NCBI GenBank assembly: GCA_009779925.1
Contig: WRAZ01000003.1
Location: 1 to 64,000 of the forward strand
Length of the DNA stretch: 64,000 nt
Reading direction: 5' to 3'
DNA from: Chitinivibrionia bacterium
GTDB taxonomy: Bacteria > Fibrobacterota > Chitinivibrionia > Chitinivibrionales > Chitinivibrionaceae
Part shown: piece after piece, positions 17,393-58,157 of the stretch
How positions within the stretch are numbered: position 1 is the first letter of the stretch
Layout of the letters: the number at the start of each line of letters is the position of its first letter
Notes under the pieces: model-generated
What the model saw: only the letters and a program-made list of their open reading frames with translations
What the model was told of the DNA's origin: nothing
The model's database searches: none
Made by a program: the position numbers and the translations under genes

Positions 17393-19837
17393 TTACCCCG
17401 TAATATCAATGTTGCTTTTTATACCTGCGCTCTGAACTTTTTGTTCTTCTTCAATCTTTTTGTTGAAACTGACGCGCACCGATTTTGTACCGATACTTTC
17501 GAGCGCTTTGTAAAATTCGTTGTAATTCAGTTTGAAATATTCAAGCATTTTTTCGTTAGTGAAATTTATTGCGACCTGCAACTGTTTTTCTAAGGTTAAG
17601 TTTGCCTTTGCCGAAACAGTATTGCCTTTTTCCAACTCGACTGTAAGTTCAACTTCGTTAGCTTGTTTTTTGCCTTTTTTTTCCTGTCCGTCTTTTTCGT
17701 CTTTGTTTATGCGAAGTTCCATTTGTATCCAAGCATTGCCGATTTGTACAGGAATAAGAACGGTTTGTTCGCTTCTTCCTGTGGTAATATCGACCTTGTT
17801 TGCGAGCAAATTTGCGGAATCAATCTTTTGTGAAAGCTCGTTTACGGAATTGGACAACAATCTCAGCCGTGAAAATGCTTCGCTTAATTTTTCGTCCGCC
17901 TGCAAATTCGGCAAATTCTGTAATTTTTGCGCCGCTTCTTTTATTTGGCTTGAAATTTCACGCAGGACGTTTCGCAGGTTTTCCTCCATTTGCGGTTGTT
18001 TTTCTCTGCGCAACAATTCTTCTTGCTTAATCGCTCCCTGCAAAATTCCGATTTTTGCCATAAGAAAATCTACCGGGTTTTCTTTTTTGAATATAATATC
18101 AGGATTTTTCAATATGTTTTCTATATTATCAAGTTTTTCCAGAGTATTTTGCATTTGTCCCCAAATTTGCGGAGAAGAAATTTCGGGTTTGTTATGTGCC
18201 GCAATTCTGGTTGTTATTGCCTCCGAATTAACCTGCATCAGTTCTTTCAACAAAATATCGGGTTTGCTTTTTATAAATTCTCGCATTTGTGCAGTAATAT
18301 TTTCAACGCTTTTTTCTGTGGCAAACAATGTTTTAAAATTTTGCAATATTGCGTCATTTTTGCTCGGTTCCGCAATATATTGCAATAACGCAGACAAAAC
18401 AGAAGGCGTAATCCTCCACATTGTCGCGGCTGAAGCGGCTGAGCCACCTGCCGTTTGTAGTATTTGTTGGGGTGTTTGTATGGGATTTGCTGTGTTTTGT
18501 AAGAAAGGCGTACTCACATTTTGAGTTTCGGTTGGTGTGGGGATTGCATTTTGTATAAATTGAGGAATTGGCATAGCTGGCGCATTTGTTGTTTGAACAG
18601 TGTTCAGGTTTTGCGCATTTTGCGGGCGTATAACACTTTCGGTTTGCGTGGTATTTTCGGGGCGCGCTGTGTTTTCCGTAAAACTTTTCAGTATGCTTCT
18701 CAAATTTTCAATAACTTCTTGCGAGAGTATTATAGGTTTTGGGCTTGTTCTTATAATGTTTGCCGTGTCGCTTATCAATTCTTTTGAAAATTCGGGAAAG
18801 TTTTTTTGTAAAACTGCAGAAAATTCGCTGTTAAACTGCGTATGAAGCACAAGCGGGAGAAATTTCGTCTCGCCACCGCCGATTTTTCCTTCAATTTTTG
18901 CAAACGAGAATGTGGCATTATCCCTTTGAGGCGATGATAAAATTTCAGTAAGCAAACTTTTTATACCTTCGCTTTGCGTAAGCGGAATTAAATTTTGAAT
19001 ATTCGCCCTGATATTTGCCTCGGTTTGCTTTATAAATACGGGTATTTTGTCGTTTTGCGTAGGGGCAGGTTTTAAACCTGCCCTATTATAGTTCGCCACT
19101 GTTTGATTTTCTGCAATATGCGTTTGGTTTTGCATTTGGGCAGGTTTAAAACCTGCCCCTACATTAGTGTTAGCGTTTTGGGTGAAGGTTTTTTCGCCGT
19201 TGCTAATTGTTTCATTTCCCAGCAAAAATTGTGATACGGCAAAAAAATCACGCGCCGACAAGTTGCCCGCCTTTACTTGCGTTGCCGTCCATTTGAAAAT
19301 CTCTTCCGTCGAAATGTTTTTCGGCAAGGCGTTTGCGTTTTGCAAAAGTTGGGAATTCGGCGATGGTTTTCGCAAAATCGCTTCAACTTCTTTTAGGATT
19401 GCGCGCGCCAATTCTTTTTCTTCGGGGGAGAGGTTTGATTTTTCTATTTGCGCAGTCAATTCCTGAGCGAGTTTTGCAAAATTTTCCGCGTTTTTAACGG
19501 CAGTCTGCGCAATGGACGCAAGTTTTTCGACGGATACGGATTTTATCGTCGCGTCCATTCCCTCGCCTCCTTGAGTTTTCGCTAAAATTTTTGAGAGAAG
19601 TTGCATCATTTCTTCTTTATTCTGCGGCGAAGACAACAGGGCGGTATCTGCGGTTTTGGGCGTTTGTGTCTGCGCAGGTTGTGCGGCTTGGCTTTCTTGC
19701 GGAGTTTGCGGAAGTTGCGGTTTTGTCGTGTTTTGCTCTTGCACTTTAGCAGTATTGCCGCCCTCTTCCTGAGGCATTTGGGCAAGATTTGCGATTTTAT
19801 GCAATGTTGTTTGAGGAATTATGTTTTGTAAATTCAA
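17393..19837 (-). CDS. FliK-like flagellar hook-length control protein
   Basis: An 814-residue protein of very biased composition (Gln, Asn, Thr, Ala, Pro) with a folded C-terminal part. The last 150 residues resemble the Flg_hook/FliK C-terminal domain: an ILIPVQIGNAWIQMELRI-like strand, then a Lys/Glu linker and EKQLQVAINFTNEKMLEYFK. FliK measures hook length and switches export specificity through FlhB, and a FlhB-like gene follows immediately. The gene carries two in-frame palindromic insertions (19059-19083 and 19138-19162), which add GAGFKPAQ and RAGLKPAPT to the disordered region. The start is ATG 19837, touching the stop of the preceding gene. The FliK assignment is by domain, composition and neighbours. 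Confidence 0.8.
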   Translation of the reverse strand: MNLQNIIPQTTLHKIANLAQMPQEEGGNTAKVQEQNTTKPQLPQTPQESQAAQPAQTQTPKTADTALLSSPQNKEEMMQLLSKILAKTQGGEGMDATIKSVSVEKLASIAQTAVKNAENFAKLAQELTAQIEKSNLSPEEKELARAILKEVEAILRKPSPNSQLLQNANALPKNISTEEIFKWTATQVKAGNLSARDFFAVSQFLLGNETISNGEKTFTQNANTNVGAGFKPAQMQNQTHIAENQTVANYNRAGLKPAPTQNDKIPVFIKQTEANIRANIQNLIPLTQSEGIKSLLTEILSSPQRDNATFSFAKIEGKIGGGETKFLPLVLHTQFNSEFSAVLQKNFPEFSKELISDTANIIRTSPKPIILSQEVIENLRSILKSFTENTARPENTTQTESVIRPQNAQNLNTVQTTNAPAMPIPQFIQNAIPTPTETQNVSTPFLQNTANPIQTPQQILQTAGGSAASAATMWRITPSVLSALLQYIAEPSKNDAILQNFKTLFATEKSVENITAQMREFIKSKPDILLKELMQVNSEAITTRIAAHNKPEISSPQIWGQMQNTLEKLDNIENILKNPDIIFKKENPVDFLMAKIGILQGAIKQEELLRREKQPQMEENLRNVLREISSQIKEAAQKLQNLPNLQADEKLSEAFSRLRLLSNSVNELSQKIDSANLLANKVDITTGRSEQTVLIPVQIGNAWIQMELRINKDEKDGQEKKGKKQANEVELTVELEKGNTVSAKANLTLEKQLQVAINFTNEKMLEYFKLNYNEFYKALESIGTKSVRVSFNKKIEEEQKVQSAGIKSNIDITG
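19059..19162. repeat. Pair of inverted GTAG palindromes inside the FliK-like gene
   Basis: Perfect 25-bp inverted arms lie at 19059-19083 and 19138-19162, each with GTAGGGGCAGG at its outer end and an internal palindrome centred on TTTAAA. The 54-bp spacer encodes Gln/Asn-rich sequence like the host protein, so two separate insertions are possible. Both arms are read through in frame on the minus strand, giving NVGAGFKPAQ and NRAGLKPAPT. Confidence 0.9.
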
Positions 19838-21786: not shown

Positions 21787-22542
21787 ATGAGCAGAAAAAT
21801 ATTTATCGCAGGCAACTGGAAAATGAACACAACTGTTGAAGAAGCGGTTGAATTGGCAAAAAGTGTTGTTGCGGAATGCAAAGACAGAGGCGATGTAGAA
21901 GTTGCGGTTTGCCCTCCTTATGTAAATTTGTCGGCTGTTGCGCAGGCAATTAAAGGAAGCGGAATTAAACTCGGCGCGCAAGACGTTCATTGGGAAGCAA
22001 GCGGCGCATTCACAGGAAAAATTTCGGTAGCTATGCTTAAAAGCGTTGGTTGCGAATACGTAATCGTAGGGCACTCCGAGCAAAGACAATATTTCGGCGA
22101 AACCGACGAAACCGTAAATAAAAAAGCAAAAGCAACACTTGCGGGCGGCTTAAAACCTATAATCTGCGTAGGCGAATTGCTCGAAGAAAGAGAAAACGGC
22201 TTTACCGAAAAAGTTGTAGAAAAGCAAATTATCGGCGCATATAACGGTTTGTCAAAAGAAGAAGCGCTTAACACGGTTATCGCTTACGAGCCTGTATGGG
22301 CTATCGGAACGGGCAAAACTGCCACACCCGAGCAAGCGGAAGAAGTTCACTTGTTCATAAGAAAACAGTTGGAAAAATTGTACGATAAAGATTTGGCGGC
22401 TAAGCTTGTTATTCAATACGGCGGCAGTATGAACCCGAAAAACGCCAAAGAATTGTTGGCAAAAGATAATGTTGACGGCGGACTTATCGGCGGCGCTTCG
22501 CTTAAAGCCGAGCAGTTCAAAGGCGTGGTAATCCCGCAGTAA
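21787..22542 (+). CDS. tpiA: Triose-phosphate isomerase
   Basis: TpiA interconverts dihydroxyacetone phosphate and glyceraldehyde 3-phosphate. The 251 residues carry all signatures: AGNWKMNTT with Asn and Lys (about 8-16), the catalytic histidine in VIVGHSEQRQYFGE near 93-106, and the catalytic glutamate and mobile loop in AYEPVWAIGTGKTATPEQA near 165-183. The phosphate-binding QYGGSMNPKNA and GGLIGGASL are near the end. The ribosome site is AACGGAG upstream of ATG. secG follows 17 bases later, and the tpiA-secG-tRNA-Leu order is common. Confidence 0.98.
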   Translation: MSRKIFIAGNWKMNTTVEEAVELAKSVVAECKDRGDVEVAVCPPYVNLSAVAQAIKGSGIKLGAQDVHWEASGAFTGKISVAMLKSVGCEYVIVGHSEQRQYFGETDETVNKKAKATLAGGLKPIICVGELLEERENGFTEKVVEKQIIGAYNGLSKEEALNTVIAYEPVWAIGTGKTATPEQAEEVHLFIRKQLEKLYDKDLAAKLVIQYGGSMNPKNAKELLAKDNVDGGLIGGASLKAEQFKGVVIPQ

Positions 22543-22559: not shown

Positions 22560-22937
22560 ATGTTGTTTGGATTTATGGTCTTTTTGTTTTTGCTTGTGTG
22601 CGTGATTTTGGTATTTTTGGTGCTTATTCAAGACGATAAGGGCGGCGGTATTTCGGGCGCAATCGGCGGCGGAGTAAGCGCTACTGCAAACTCGCTTTTG
22701 GGTTCGCAGAATGCCGAAAACATTTTAACGCGCGGAACAAAAATTTTTGCGGCGGCATTTTTTGTGCTGACCCTTATTATTACGCTTTATGTTGCCAGAG
22801 GTAATCTGACGACTACGGCTTCGGGTGTGCGGGCTGTTGTGGAGCGCGAAGGCGCGGCAACACAGCAAATTAACGTTAATCCAGTTATGCCGATTGAGAT
22901 GCCGATGCTTCCTGTTCAGGAAGAGAGCGCAGAATAA
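22560..22937 (+). CDS. secG: Preprotein translocase subunit SecG
   Basis: A 125-residue SecG. The first helix is at about 4-26 (VFLFLLVCVILVFLVLIQ), followed by the typical DDKGGGISGAIGGG and the LGSQNAENILTRGTKIFAAA connection. A second helix lies at about 60-80, and a variable acidic tail of about 45 residues ends the protein. SecG assists SecYE-mediated export by topology changes with SecA. It follows tpiA with AAGAAGGA upstream and precedes two tRNA-Leu genes. Confidence 0.95.
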   Translation: MLFGFMVFLFLLVCVILVFLVLIQDDKGGGISGAIGGGVSATANSLLGSQNAENILTRGTKIFAAAFFVLTLIITLYVARGNLTTTASGVRAVVEREGAATQQINVNPVMPIEMPMLPVQEESAE

Positions 22938-22950
22938 ATGAGTTTTTTGT

Positions 22951-23037
22951 GCGGTCGTGGTGGAATTGGTAGACACGCAGGATTAAGGATCCTGTGGGGA
23001 TTGCCTTGTGCGGGTTCAAGTCCCGCTGACCGCACCA
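22951..23037 (+). tRNA. tRNA-Leu (anticodon AAG), copy 1
   Basis: An 87-base class II tRNA with encoded CCA. The acceptor is GCGGTCG with TGACCGC, and the D arm GTG/CAC is typical of tRNA-Leu. The anticodon stem CAGGA/TCCTG encloses TTAAGGA, so positions 34-36 are AAG and position 37 is G, as expected for CUN-reading leucine tRNAs. A long variable arm and the TTCAAGT T loop follow. A 34 would have to be deaminated to inosine to read CUC and CUA as well as CUU. Confidence 0.95.
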
Positions 23038-23051
23038 TTTTTTTTAACAAT

Positions 23052-23138
23052 GCGGACGTGGTGGAATTGGTAGACACGCAGGATTAAGGATCCTGTGGGG
23101 ATTGCCTTGTGCGGGTTCAAGTCCCGCTGTCCGCACCA
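23052..23138 (+). tRNA. tRNA-Leu (anticodon AAG), copy 2
   Basis: This copy is identical to copy 1, except for acceptor pair 5-68, which is A-T here and T-A in copy 1. This is a compensatory double change, so both genes fold equally well and are likely both functional. It encodes CCA and is followed by a T-run that may end transcription. The genes are 14 bases apart. Confidence 0.95.
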
Positions 23139-24738: not shown

Positions 24739-25767
24739 TCACTTTATGCGCCATTTGATTTCTTTTTGCGCTCGCATAGGAACGATTGAAATCTGCTCAT
24801 TTACCTTAAATTCGGCGGGGGCAGTCCACGGCTCGCGGACTAAAGTGATCGTATCTTTATTGTGCGGAAGACCGTAATAATCCGCGCCGTTTTTGGAGCA
24901 GAAATTCTCGAAATTTTCCCAAGCGTCGGCTTCTTCAAATGCTTCGGCGTAAAGGGGGAGCGCGGCGAATGCCGAATAAATTCCGCCAAATCCGCCGCTT
25001 GTTTCTTTTGCGCTTTTGGGGTGTGGAGCGGAATCTGTTCCGAGGAAAAATTTTTTGGAAGGCATTTTTATCGCTTTAAGCAGTGCTTGGCGGTGAGTTT
25101 CGCGTTTTAGAACGGGAAGGCAATAATTGTGCGGATTTATTCCGTTTTCAAAGATTGCGTTTCTGTTCATCAGCAAATGATGCGCGGTTATTGTTGCCGC
25201 AATTTCGTTATCGCACACAAAATCAACGCCTTCTTTGGTGGTAATATGTTCCAAAACTATTTTTAGTCCTGCTGTTTTCATTATCTTTTTGCTTAAAATA
25301 TCGTCAATAAAACGCTTTTCTTTGTCGAAAGCATCGACGTTTGCGTCGCTTACTTCGCCGTGGAGCAGAAGCGGAAGATTGTGCTTCGCCATTGCTTCGC
25401 AGACAGGGGCTATTTTGTCGAAATCGCTTATGCCCGCTTGCGAGTTTGTCGTGGCGTTGCTCGGATAGATTTTTATTCCCGTTATAAGTCCTGATTTTGC
25501 AAACGCTTCGATGTCGGCGGGAGTGTGGTCGTGGGTCAGATAAATAGTCATAAGCGGTTCAAAATTCGGATTTTTCGCCGCTTGCATTATTCTGTCGCGA
25601 TAGTTTTTGACATCGTCAAGCGTAATTATCGGCGGTTTTAAGTTCGGCATAATTATTGCCCGTGCAAAAACTTGCGCTGTGTGGGGAAGTACGACCGACA
25701 TAATCTCGTTGTCTCTTATATGCAAATGGAAATCATCGGGCTGAATTATTGTAATCTCGTTTTTCAT
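24739..25767 (-). CDS. pyrC: Dihydroorotase PyrC (class II)
   Basis: PyrC closes carbamoyl aspartate to dihydroorotate in pyrimidine synthesis. The 342-residue form starts MKNEITIIQPDDFHLHIRD, where DFHLHIRD supplies the first two zinc histidines. ATG 25767 with GGAGGATTTT upstream is preferred over any earlier start. Further ligands are visible in LLLHGEVS (about 133), LEHITTKEG (about 172) and LGTDSAPHPKS (about 242, catalytic aspartate). The length and motifs match the E. coli-type enzyme. No other pyr gene is near. Confidence 0.96.
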   Translation of the reverse strand: MKNEITIIQPDDFHLHIRDNEIMSVVLPHTAQVFARAIIMPNLKPPIITLDDVKNYRDRIMQAAKNPNFEPLMTIYLTHDHTPADIEAFAKSGLITGIKIYPSNATTNSQAGISDFDKIAPVCEAMAKHNLPLLLHGEVSDANVDAFDKEKRFIDDILSKKIMKTAGLKIVLEHITTKEGVDFVCDNEIAATITAHHLLMNRNAIFENGINPHNYCLPVLKRETHRQALLKAIKMPSKKFFLGTDSAPHPKSAKETSGGFGGIYSAFAALPLYAEAFEEADAWENFENFCSKNGADYYGLPHNKDTITLVREPWTAPAEFKVNEQISIVPMRAQKEIKWRIK

Positions 25768-25807
25768 AGAAAATCCTCCGAAAATATTGAGGAAAGAAGA
25801 GGGAGAA

Positions 25808-25879
25808 TACACCCACGGGGAGTCGAACCCCGCTTGCAAGGATGAAAACCTTGAGTCCTAACCGATAGACGATGGGTGC
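25808..25879 (-). tRNA. tRNA-Glu (anticodon TTC)
   Basis: On the minus strand the acceptor GCACCCA pairs with TGGGTGT, with a G-U first pair, which is slightly unusual. The anticodon stem CAAGG/CCTTG encloses TTTTCAT, so the anticodon is TTC. The T arm is CGGGG/CCCCG with TTCGACT. The discriminator is A, and CCA is not encoded, unlike the two tRNA-Leu(AAG) genes. Confidence 0.93.
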
Positions 25880-25895
25880 ATAAATCTAAAATGCG

Positions 25896-30692: not shown

Positions 30693-30710
30693 TTGGCACG
30701 CACATTGCAT
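30693..30710 (+). promoter_or_regulatory. Sigma-54 promoter of the flagellin gene
   Basis: TTGGCACGCACATTGCAT matches the sigma-54 (RpoN) consensus TGGCACG-N4-TTGC exactly. The -24 GG is at 30695-30696 and the -12 GC at 30707-30708, 10 bases apart. Transcription should begin near 30720, about 40 bases before the start codon. An enhancer-binding regulator is required, but none is encoded in this window. Confidence 0.88.
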
Positions 30711-30758
30711 ACCGATGGTGTAAAAAAAAGGAATTTTAATATAATCAGGAGGATTATT

Positions 30759-31781
30759 ATGAGAATTAATCACAATTCACCTGCAACAGTCACACAGGGG
30801 GCTCTTGCTATTAACAATCGCGGGCTTGTCAAAAACTTGGAAAGATTATCGACAGGTTTAAGAGTAAACAGAGCAAGCGACGACGCGGCGGGTTTGGCAA
30901 TTTCGGAAGGCTTGCGTACGCAAATTCGCGGTTCGCAACAAGCAAAAAGAAATGCCTTGGACGGTATCAGCGCACTCAACATTGCGGAAGGTGCGACAAA
31001 CGAAATTTCGGCAATTCTTCAACGTCAGCGTGAGCTTGCAATTCAGGCGGCTACCGCTACTTACAGCAGTGTTGAACGCCAATATATGGAATTGGAATTC
31101 CAACAATTGACGTCGGAAATTCTCAGAATAAGCCGAGCGACAAACTTTAACGGAATGAAACTTTTGGACGTTGATAATCTTCAGCGTTTGGGCGGAGATC
31201 TGAATAAAGAATTGTGGATTGATGCAAACGATACGAGTGGTATAGACAGCATTAATATACCTCTTAACCCACTTGATATAACTCAATATCCCGGACACCC
31301 TAACTTTCAAAACGCCGCCAATCCCGGTGCTGCTAATGGTGTAAATGGACATTGGCAGACGTGGATAGACGCGTTGGCGACTGGTGCTGAACCTGACCTT
31401 AGTATGGACCTTACTCAAATTCCGCCTGTGCTGAATAACCAAGATTATTCTAATTACCTTGAAAGTTTGATGGGCTTTGCGGGGACGGTTGTAAATGCTG
31501 ACTTTGCACAGCGGACAATTGGTACCCTTGACGAATTGATAAAACAGGTGAATGATTTGCGTGCAGACGTTGGTTCGTTTGTTAACCGTTTGGAAAGTAC
31601 GGTGAATAACTTGGATATTTCTATTACCAACCAAGCGGCGGCGGAAAGCCAGATAAGAGACGCGGACTTTGCGCTTCAATCGTCGGAGTTCTCACGTTCT
31701 CAAATTCTTACACAGTCAGCGACGGCTATGCTTGCACAAGCAAACCAAGTCCCGCAGAACGTGTTGTCGTTGATAAGGTAA
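30759..31781 (+). CDS. fliC: Flagellin
   Basis: A 340-residue flagellin. The conserved D0/D1 N-terminus reads MRINHNSPA, then NRGLVKNLERLSTGLRVNRA and SDDAAGLAISEGLRTQI. The C-terminal D0 reads AAAESQIRDADFALQSSEFS, then RSQILTQSATAMLAQANQVP. The variable middle (about 150-250) is short and rich in Asn, Pro and Gly. ATG 30759 with AGGAGGATT upstream gives the true N-terminus, as an earlier in-frame start would add a basic leader that flagellins lack. It is preceded by a perfect sigma-54 promoter. It is monocistronic, followed by a repeat cluster. Confidence 0.96.
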   Translation: MRINHNSPATVTQGALAINNRGLVKNLERLSTGLRVNRASDDAAGLAISEGLRTQIRGSQQAKRNALDGISALNIAEGATNEISAILQRQRELAIQAATATYSSVERQYMELEFQQLTSEILRISRATNFNGMKLLDVDNLQRLGGDLNKELWIDANDTSGIDSINIPLNPLDITQYPGHPNFQNAANPGAANGVNGHWQTWIDALATGAEPDLSMDLTQIPPVLNNQDYSNYLESLMGFAGTVVNADFAQRTIGTLDELIKQVNDLRADVGSFVNRLESTVNNLDISITNQAAAESQIRDADFALQSSEFSRSQILTQSATAMLAQANQVPQNVLSLIR

Positions 31782-58075: not shown

Positions 58076-58157
58076 TGCGAGTAGAGGGAGTTGAACCCCC
58101 ACACCTCTCGGTAGCGGCTTCTAAGACCGCCGTGTCTGCCGATTCCACCATACTCGC
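58076..58157 (-). tRNA. tRNA-Leu (anticodon TAG)
   Basis: A class II tRNA on the minus strand. The acceptor is GCGAGTA with TACTCGC. The anticodon stem GCGGT/GCCGC (last pair T-G) encloses CTTAGAA, so the anticodon is TAG. The long variable arm and TTCAACT T loop fit tRNA-Leu. The discriminator is A, and CCA is not encoded. It lies between coaD and tig, both on the same strand. Confidence 0.93.

Follow-up and report, generated by a model that had tools for sequence, protein, structure and literature searches.

Tandem tRNA-Leu(AAG) genes behind secG in a Fibrobacterota genome: a predicted tRNA-Leu(IAG) and the breadth of AAG-for-GAG replacement in bacteria

TadA, the enzyme that makes inosine in tRNA-Arg(ACG), is described in bacteria as strictly specific for this tRNA. 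Inosine has been shown in the tRNA-Leu of Oenococcus oeni (PMC8072771), Streptococcus pyogenes (PMC11472039) and further streptococci, with a link to leucine recoding in the latter (PMC13249217). The S. pyogenes TadA fully edits its own tRNA-Leu(AAG), with the editing consensus YUAMGRA, and the same tRNA is not modified by the E. coli TadA (PMC11472039). In a test tRNA with an AAG anticodon, the substitution A37G blocks the E. coli enzyme (PMC11066159). The classic TadA substrate, E. coli tRNA-Arg(ACG), has C32 and A38 and the motif YUACGAA (PMC11472039). The AAG genes reported were nearly all from Bacilli, cases in Mycoplasma and Prochlorococcus being also noted, and in Lactobacillales the leucine codon usage is shifted towards CUU and CUC (PMC13249217).

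Bacterial tRNA-Leu(IAG) is already known, and the genes described here would add a member, predicted to be IAG. The newer part is the breadth of the replacement of GAG by AAG, which extends to Deferribacterota, Myxococcota and scattered other groups.

The gene pair and the tpiA-secG slot

The window, which is the whole stretch of 64,000 nucleotides that was analysed, comes from a genome (G000) of 2,502,114 bases in 88 contigs, 97.6% complete, of the Fibrobacterota, the phylum of Fibrobacter. A flagellin-like ORF at 30693-31781 (+) and a long ORF at 17393-19837 (-), which by eye resembles flagellar hook-length control proteins, suggest a flagellated member of the phylum. The mechanical ORF 24739-25839 (-) overlaps a tRNA-Glu gene (25807-25880) owing to an upstream TTG, and its dihydroorotase-like protein probably starts at an internal ATG (MKNEITIIQ). 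The cluster of interest contains the following features:

21787..22542, + strand: tpiA (triose-phosphate isomerase), first gene of the tpiA-secG-tRNA-Leu cluster (NCBIfam TIGR00419, 211 bits; synteny)
22560..22937, + strand: secG (preprotein translocase subunit; NCBIfam TIGR00810, 62.7 bits, cutoff 30.85; synteny)
22951..23037, + strand: tRNA-Leu(AAG) copy 1, U5-A68, CCA encoded (ARAGORN, Rfam, sequence)
22983..22989, + strand: anticodon loop of copy 1, UUAAGGA (32-38), A34 at 22985 (sequence)
23052..23138, + strand: tRNA-Leu(AAG) copy 2, A5-U68, CCA encoded (ARAGORN, Rfam, sequence)
23084..23090, + strand: anticodon loop of copy 2, UUAAGGA (32-38), A34 at 23086 (sequence)

The stop codon of secG lies 13 bases upstream of copy 1. 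With the Rfam model RF00005 (gathering score 29 bits), copy 1 scores 54.7 bits and copy 2 scores 55.3 bits. In both, the stem CAGGA/TCCTG encloses the loop TTAAGGA, placing A34-A35-G36 at 22985-22987 and 23086-23088, and the sequences include a long variable arm, A73 and the encoded CCA. Chance does not account for two tRNAs with such scores at a syntenic tRNA locus. The copies agree at 85 of their 87 positions, and the two mismatches, at sequence positions 5 (T/A) and 79 (A/T; tRNA position 68), concern bases that pair with each other and compensate. The sequence-only reading of this DNA, made beforehand, had described tandem tRNA-Leu(AAG) genes with this loop that differ solely at pair 5-68, and ARAGORN, Rfam and the sequence bear it out on both points; its proposal that both copies are selected for folding is supported by a compensatory pair that preserves the fold in each. 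A consensus scan for a terminator or promoter at the pair gave matches no more frequent than chance.

The tRNA pair of the sister genome G001, compared by eye from the printed sequences, is likewise a two-gene array in which copy 1 has U5-A68 and copy 2 A5-U68; no CCA is encoded in the second. Further positions, loop positions 32 and 37 among them, distinguish the two genomes and are alike within each. As the 5-68 difference is common to both genomes and the rest has changed in concert, the tandem duplication probably predates their split, and the interiors of the copies are possibly kept alike within each genome by gene conversion. G002 has two identical copies and G003 a single one. A fragmented assembly of 88 contigs could raise the suspicion that the pair is an artefact of assembly or binning, or consists of pseudogenes. 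This is scarcely credible, given that AAG genes were found independently in G001 and in the family members G002 and G003, that the two-copy state recurs in two of these three genomes, that pair 5-68 compensates and that the Rfam scores are normal.

The position of the genes points to their origin. All tRNA-Leu(GAG) loci checked in relatives lie behind tpiA-secG in the same orientation, as does every AAG gene of the Fibrobacterota, and the CAG genes do not. The E. coli leuU (GAG) also lies behind secG. With GAG and AAG genes in one syntenic slot, G34 became A34 in place; judged by this synteny, the A34 gene is the former GAG gene of the ancestor, altered at the wobble base, and not an import. 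Horizontal gain from another AAG lineage, with displacement of the GAG gene, might be imagined since AAG is present in many phyla, and is very improbable: the AAG genes occupy the slot of the relatives' GAG genes, within the order the occurrence of AAG agrees with the rpoB tree, and the best DNA matches among 60 relatives searched are from the genus, the order and the family. It was rejected on synteny and tree.

Leucine decoding and the candidate editing enzyme

The tRNA set of the genome, obtained from Rfam matches and from ARAGORN on the fetched loci, comprises 42 tRNAs. The leucine tRNAs among them are AAG (two copies), TAG, CAG, TAA and CAA, and the arginine tRNAs are ACG, CCG, TCT and CCT. 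No Thr or Ser tRNA with A34 occurs in this set, A34 being found solely in Arg and Leu. A normal tRNA-Leu(GAG), the presence of which would have counted against the sequence-only reading, was looked for genome-wide and not found, neither among the 42 tRNAs nor by the GAG pattern, which has zero matches in this 97.6% complete genome. The partner isoacceptor for CUA and CUG lies in the window:

58076..58157, - strand: tRNA-Leu(UAG) (ARAGORN)

CTT, correctly noted beforehand as a common leucine codon in the window, is the commonest one (33%). CTC makes up 9% of the leucine codons there and occurs nine times in the rpoB of G000; these codons need to be read, which counts in favour of I34.

The genome encodes a TadA homologue at C4:59547-59996 (Pfam, 129.6 bits) with the catalytic HAE and PCxxC motifs. 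The NCBIfam TadA model is its top match with 128.5 bits, below the cutoff of 150, and no other model is nearly as good. The best PDB match is the S. aureus TadA (2b3j, E=1.9e-33). The host Leu loop UUAAGGA and the loop of the host tRNA-Arg(ACG), CUACGGA, both fit YUAMGRA, the consensus of the S. pyogenes enzyme. The host tRNA-Arg(ACG) itself carries G37 and A38, so the host TadA must tolerate G37, which answers the strongest objection to editing, namely the G37 block in E. coli. That the host TadA accepts A35 and G37 in the Leu loop is assumed.

The window genes are very probably working CUU/CUC tRNAs, derived from a former GAG gene, in which TadA edits A34 to inosine (IAG). In the proposed course of events, the wobble G34 of an ancestral tRNA-Leu(GAG) gene downstream of secG would have mutated to A34, and the GAG gene would be gone since it was the gene that became AAG. 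The TadA that makes inosine in the host tRNA-Arg(ACG) would also convert A34 to I34 in tRNA-Leu, and the resulting tRNA-Leu(IAG) would read CUU and CUC, and possibly CUA. The locus would afterwards have been duplicated in tandem. We infer the deamination, the acceptance of the loop by TadA and the codons read from the work on S. pyogenes and Oenococcus and from the fit of the loop to the consensus.

A tRNA with unmodified A34 would read mainly CUU, with CUC read weakly by A34 or by a cmo5U34-bearing tRNA-Leu(UAG). Such bacterial tRNAs exist, as O. oeni shows with its Thr and Ser tRNAs (PMC8072771), and next to an AAG anticodon G37 is not accepted by the E. coli TadA (PMC11066159). CTC is also rarer than CTT, and G000 has a CmoB homologue (343 bits), so that a tRNA-Leu(UAG) with cmo5U34 might take over some of the CUU codons and perhaps CUC; such shared decoding would leave some room for unmodified A34. 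On the other side, the bacterial tRNA-Leu(AAG) examined in vivo in the studies consulted (O. oeni, S. pyogenes and S. mutans) are inosine-modified, the G37 and A38 of the host tRNA-Arg(ACG) imply that the host TadA tolerates G37, and two other AAG genomes (G002 and G008), where CTC reaches 25-26% of the leucine codons in gene samples, have no GAG match by pattern despite this heavy use. Of the two states offered by the sequence-only reading, unmodified A34 is thus unlikely for the window tRNAs, and inosine appears much the likelier.

The search for a diagnostic TadA residue gave none that reliably tells AAG and GAG genomes apart. Gln at position 142 (numbering of the G000 TadA fragment) occurs, within Fibrobacterota, in 6/6 AAG and 2/20 GAG sequences; it left the eight strongest columns once Deferribacterota, Myxococcota and PDB sequences were added. 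The best column is then Gly at position 71 in the E. coli numbering (21/22 against 13/32, uncorrected for kinship or for the columns tested), and no determinant is claimed from it. The E. coli TadA row of the alignment serves mainly for numbering. Four Myxococcota GAG genomes (G250, G245, G259 and G312) have no strong TadA-like match, the best ones ranging from 6e-18 to 7.5e-10 and lying mostly in frames of RibD-like length; some Myxococcota may be without TadA, or the gene may fall in an assembly gap.

A clear shift of codon usage with AAG was not separable from GC3 and relatedness. Among the few, related genomes with GC3 below 0.47, CTY/CTN ranges over 0.64-0.83 with AAG and over 0.62-0.71 with GAG.

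Distribution of the AAG and GAG states

In Fibrobacterota, AAG was matched in 7/168 genomes, GAG in 147/168 and both in 0/168. Of the seven AAG genomes, four belong to family f1, which has five members, and the others are G005 (f2), G008 (f5) and G158 (f13); the fifth f1 member, G004 (69% complete), matched neither. In the rpoB tree, f1, f5 and f2 form one clade (support 100/98), f2 being represented there by G011, the tRNA of which was not found, and G158 groups with the GAG genomes of f11. By these matches A34 marks a clade of three families and occurs also in a distant fourth family. The place of G158 among GAG genomes requires at least two changes in Fibrobacterota, and their direction would be from GAG to AAG because GAG is the majority state. 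The single-gene TIM tree is poorly resolved, with long outgroup branches, and origins were not counted from it.

The other phyla were scanned with fixed D- and T-arm motifs, by which divergent genes are missed. When named genomes were scanned for AAG genes whose D-arm is related, 78 stretches came up, from Prochlorococcus, Synechococcus, Deferribacteraceae, Myxococcota, Alphaproteobacteria, TM6, Zixibacteria, Synergistaceae and others, and ARAGORN called tRNA-Leu(AAG) for all but one of them. When 30 such genomes were scanned whole, 29 had AAG alone and one, G171 (Myxococcales RS415), had both. Its GAG-like and AAG matches are at C69:17-66 and C120:9712-9763; the former is at the extreme end of its contig, and contamination is possible. 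Among 51 Deferribacterota genomes, 24 have AAG and 23 GAG (AAG in 24/47 with a match). The corresponding numbers for 113 genomes spread over the Myxococcota are 23 and 79 (23/102 with a match); no genome of either phylum has both, a second, non-pairing AAG match in G287 being left aside. The earlier statement that A34 is normally confined in bacteria to tRNA-Arg(ACG) is true of most of them and is overstated, both because tRNA-Leu(IAG) is proven in O. oeni and streptococci (PMC8072771, PMC11472039, PMC13249217) and because AAG genes are common in these two phyla.

The rest of the loop appears to shift together with the wobble base, from U32 and G38 or U38 with GAG to usually C32 and A38 with AAG. 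The AAG genes listed for Deferribacterota and Myxococcota have C32 and A38 (CTAAGGA), positions 32 and 38 having been left free in that scan, and the GAG genes of both phyla have U32 with G38 or U38 (TTGAGGG or TTGAGGT). In the wider AAG set, for which the pattern limited position 32 to C/T and 37 to A/G, C32 occurs in 61/79 and A38 in 67/79. These counts refer to genomes, not to independent events. The window loop UUAAGGA has A38 and retains U32, and that of G008, UUAAGGG, is GAG-like.

It is rather probable that GAG has given way to IAG repeatedly and genome-wide in many phyla, among them Deferribacterota, Myxococcota, cyanobacteria, alphaproteobacteria and, at least twice, Fibrobacterota, and that the trait is not mainly one of Bacilli; the loop would tend to be remodelled towards that of the TadA substrate tRNA-Arg(ACG), implying repeated broadening of the TadA specificity. 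In the literature searched, neither this spread over phyla nor the coupled change of the loop was met with, which is no proof of their being unpublished. The swaps in Fibrobacterota, Deferribacterota and Myxococcota, with loss of GAG and the same loop change, are natural replicates. With them it can be asked by which changes TadA takes on further substrates, whether the cell comes to depend more on the enzyme and whether the use of leucine codons is altered by I34, and they bear on how the wider use of inosine in eukaryotes could have begun.

Comparison with described tRNA-Leu genes

The standard tRNA-Leu(GAG) gene behind secG shares with the window genes the slot tpiA-secG-tRNA-Leu and a similar acceptor stem, D-arm and long variable arm. 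The window genes differ from it by A34 in place of G34 and by A38, where GAG genes have G38 or, in many genomes of the Fibrobacter family, U38.

In O. oeni, tRNA-Leu(AAG) exists besides tRNA-Arg(ACG), as in the host, but A34 is present in Arg, Leu, Thr and Ser, with I34 in Arg and Leu, whereas the host has A34 in Arg and Leu alone (PMC8072771). The tRNA-Leu(IAG) of S. pyogenes and S. mutans (PMC11472039, PMC13249217) is similar in that AAG stands in place of GAG and that tRNA-Arg(ACG) and TadA are also present, and the window loop fits the YUAMGRA consensus of the S. pyogenes TadA. In contrast to these streptococci, where inosine is proven, the host belongs to another phylum and its case is known from the genes; the window also has two tandem copies behind secG, and U32 instead of the C32 common in other AAG genes.
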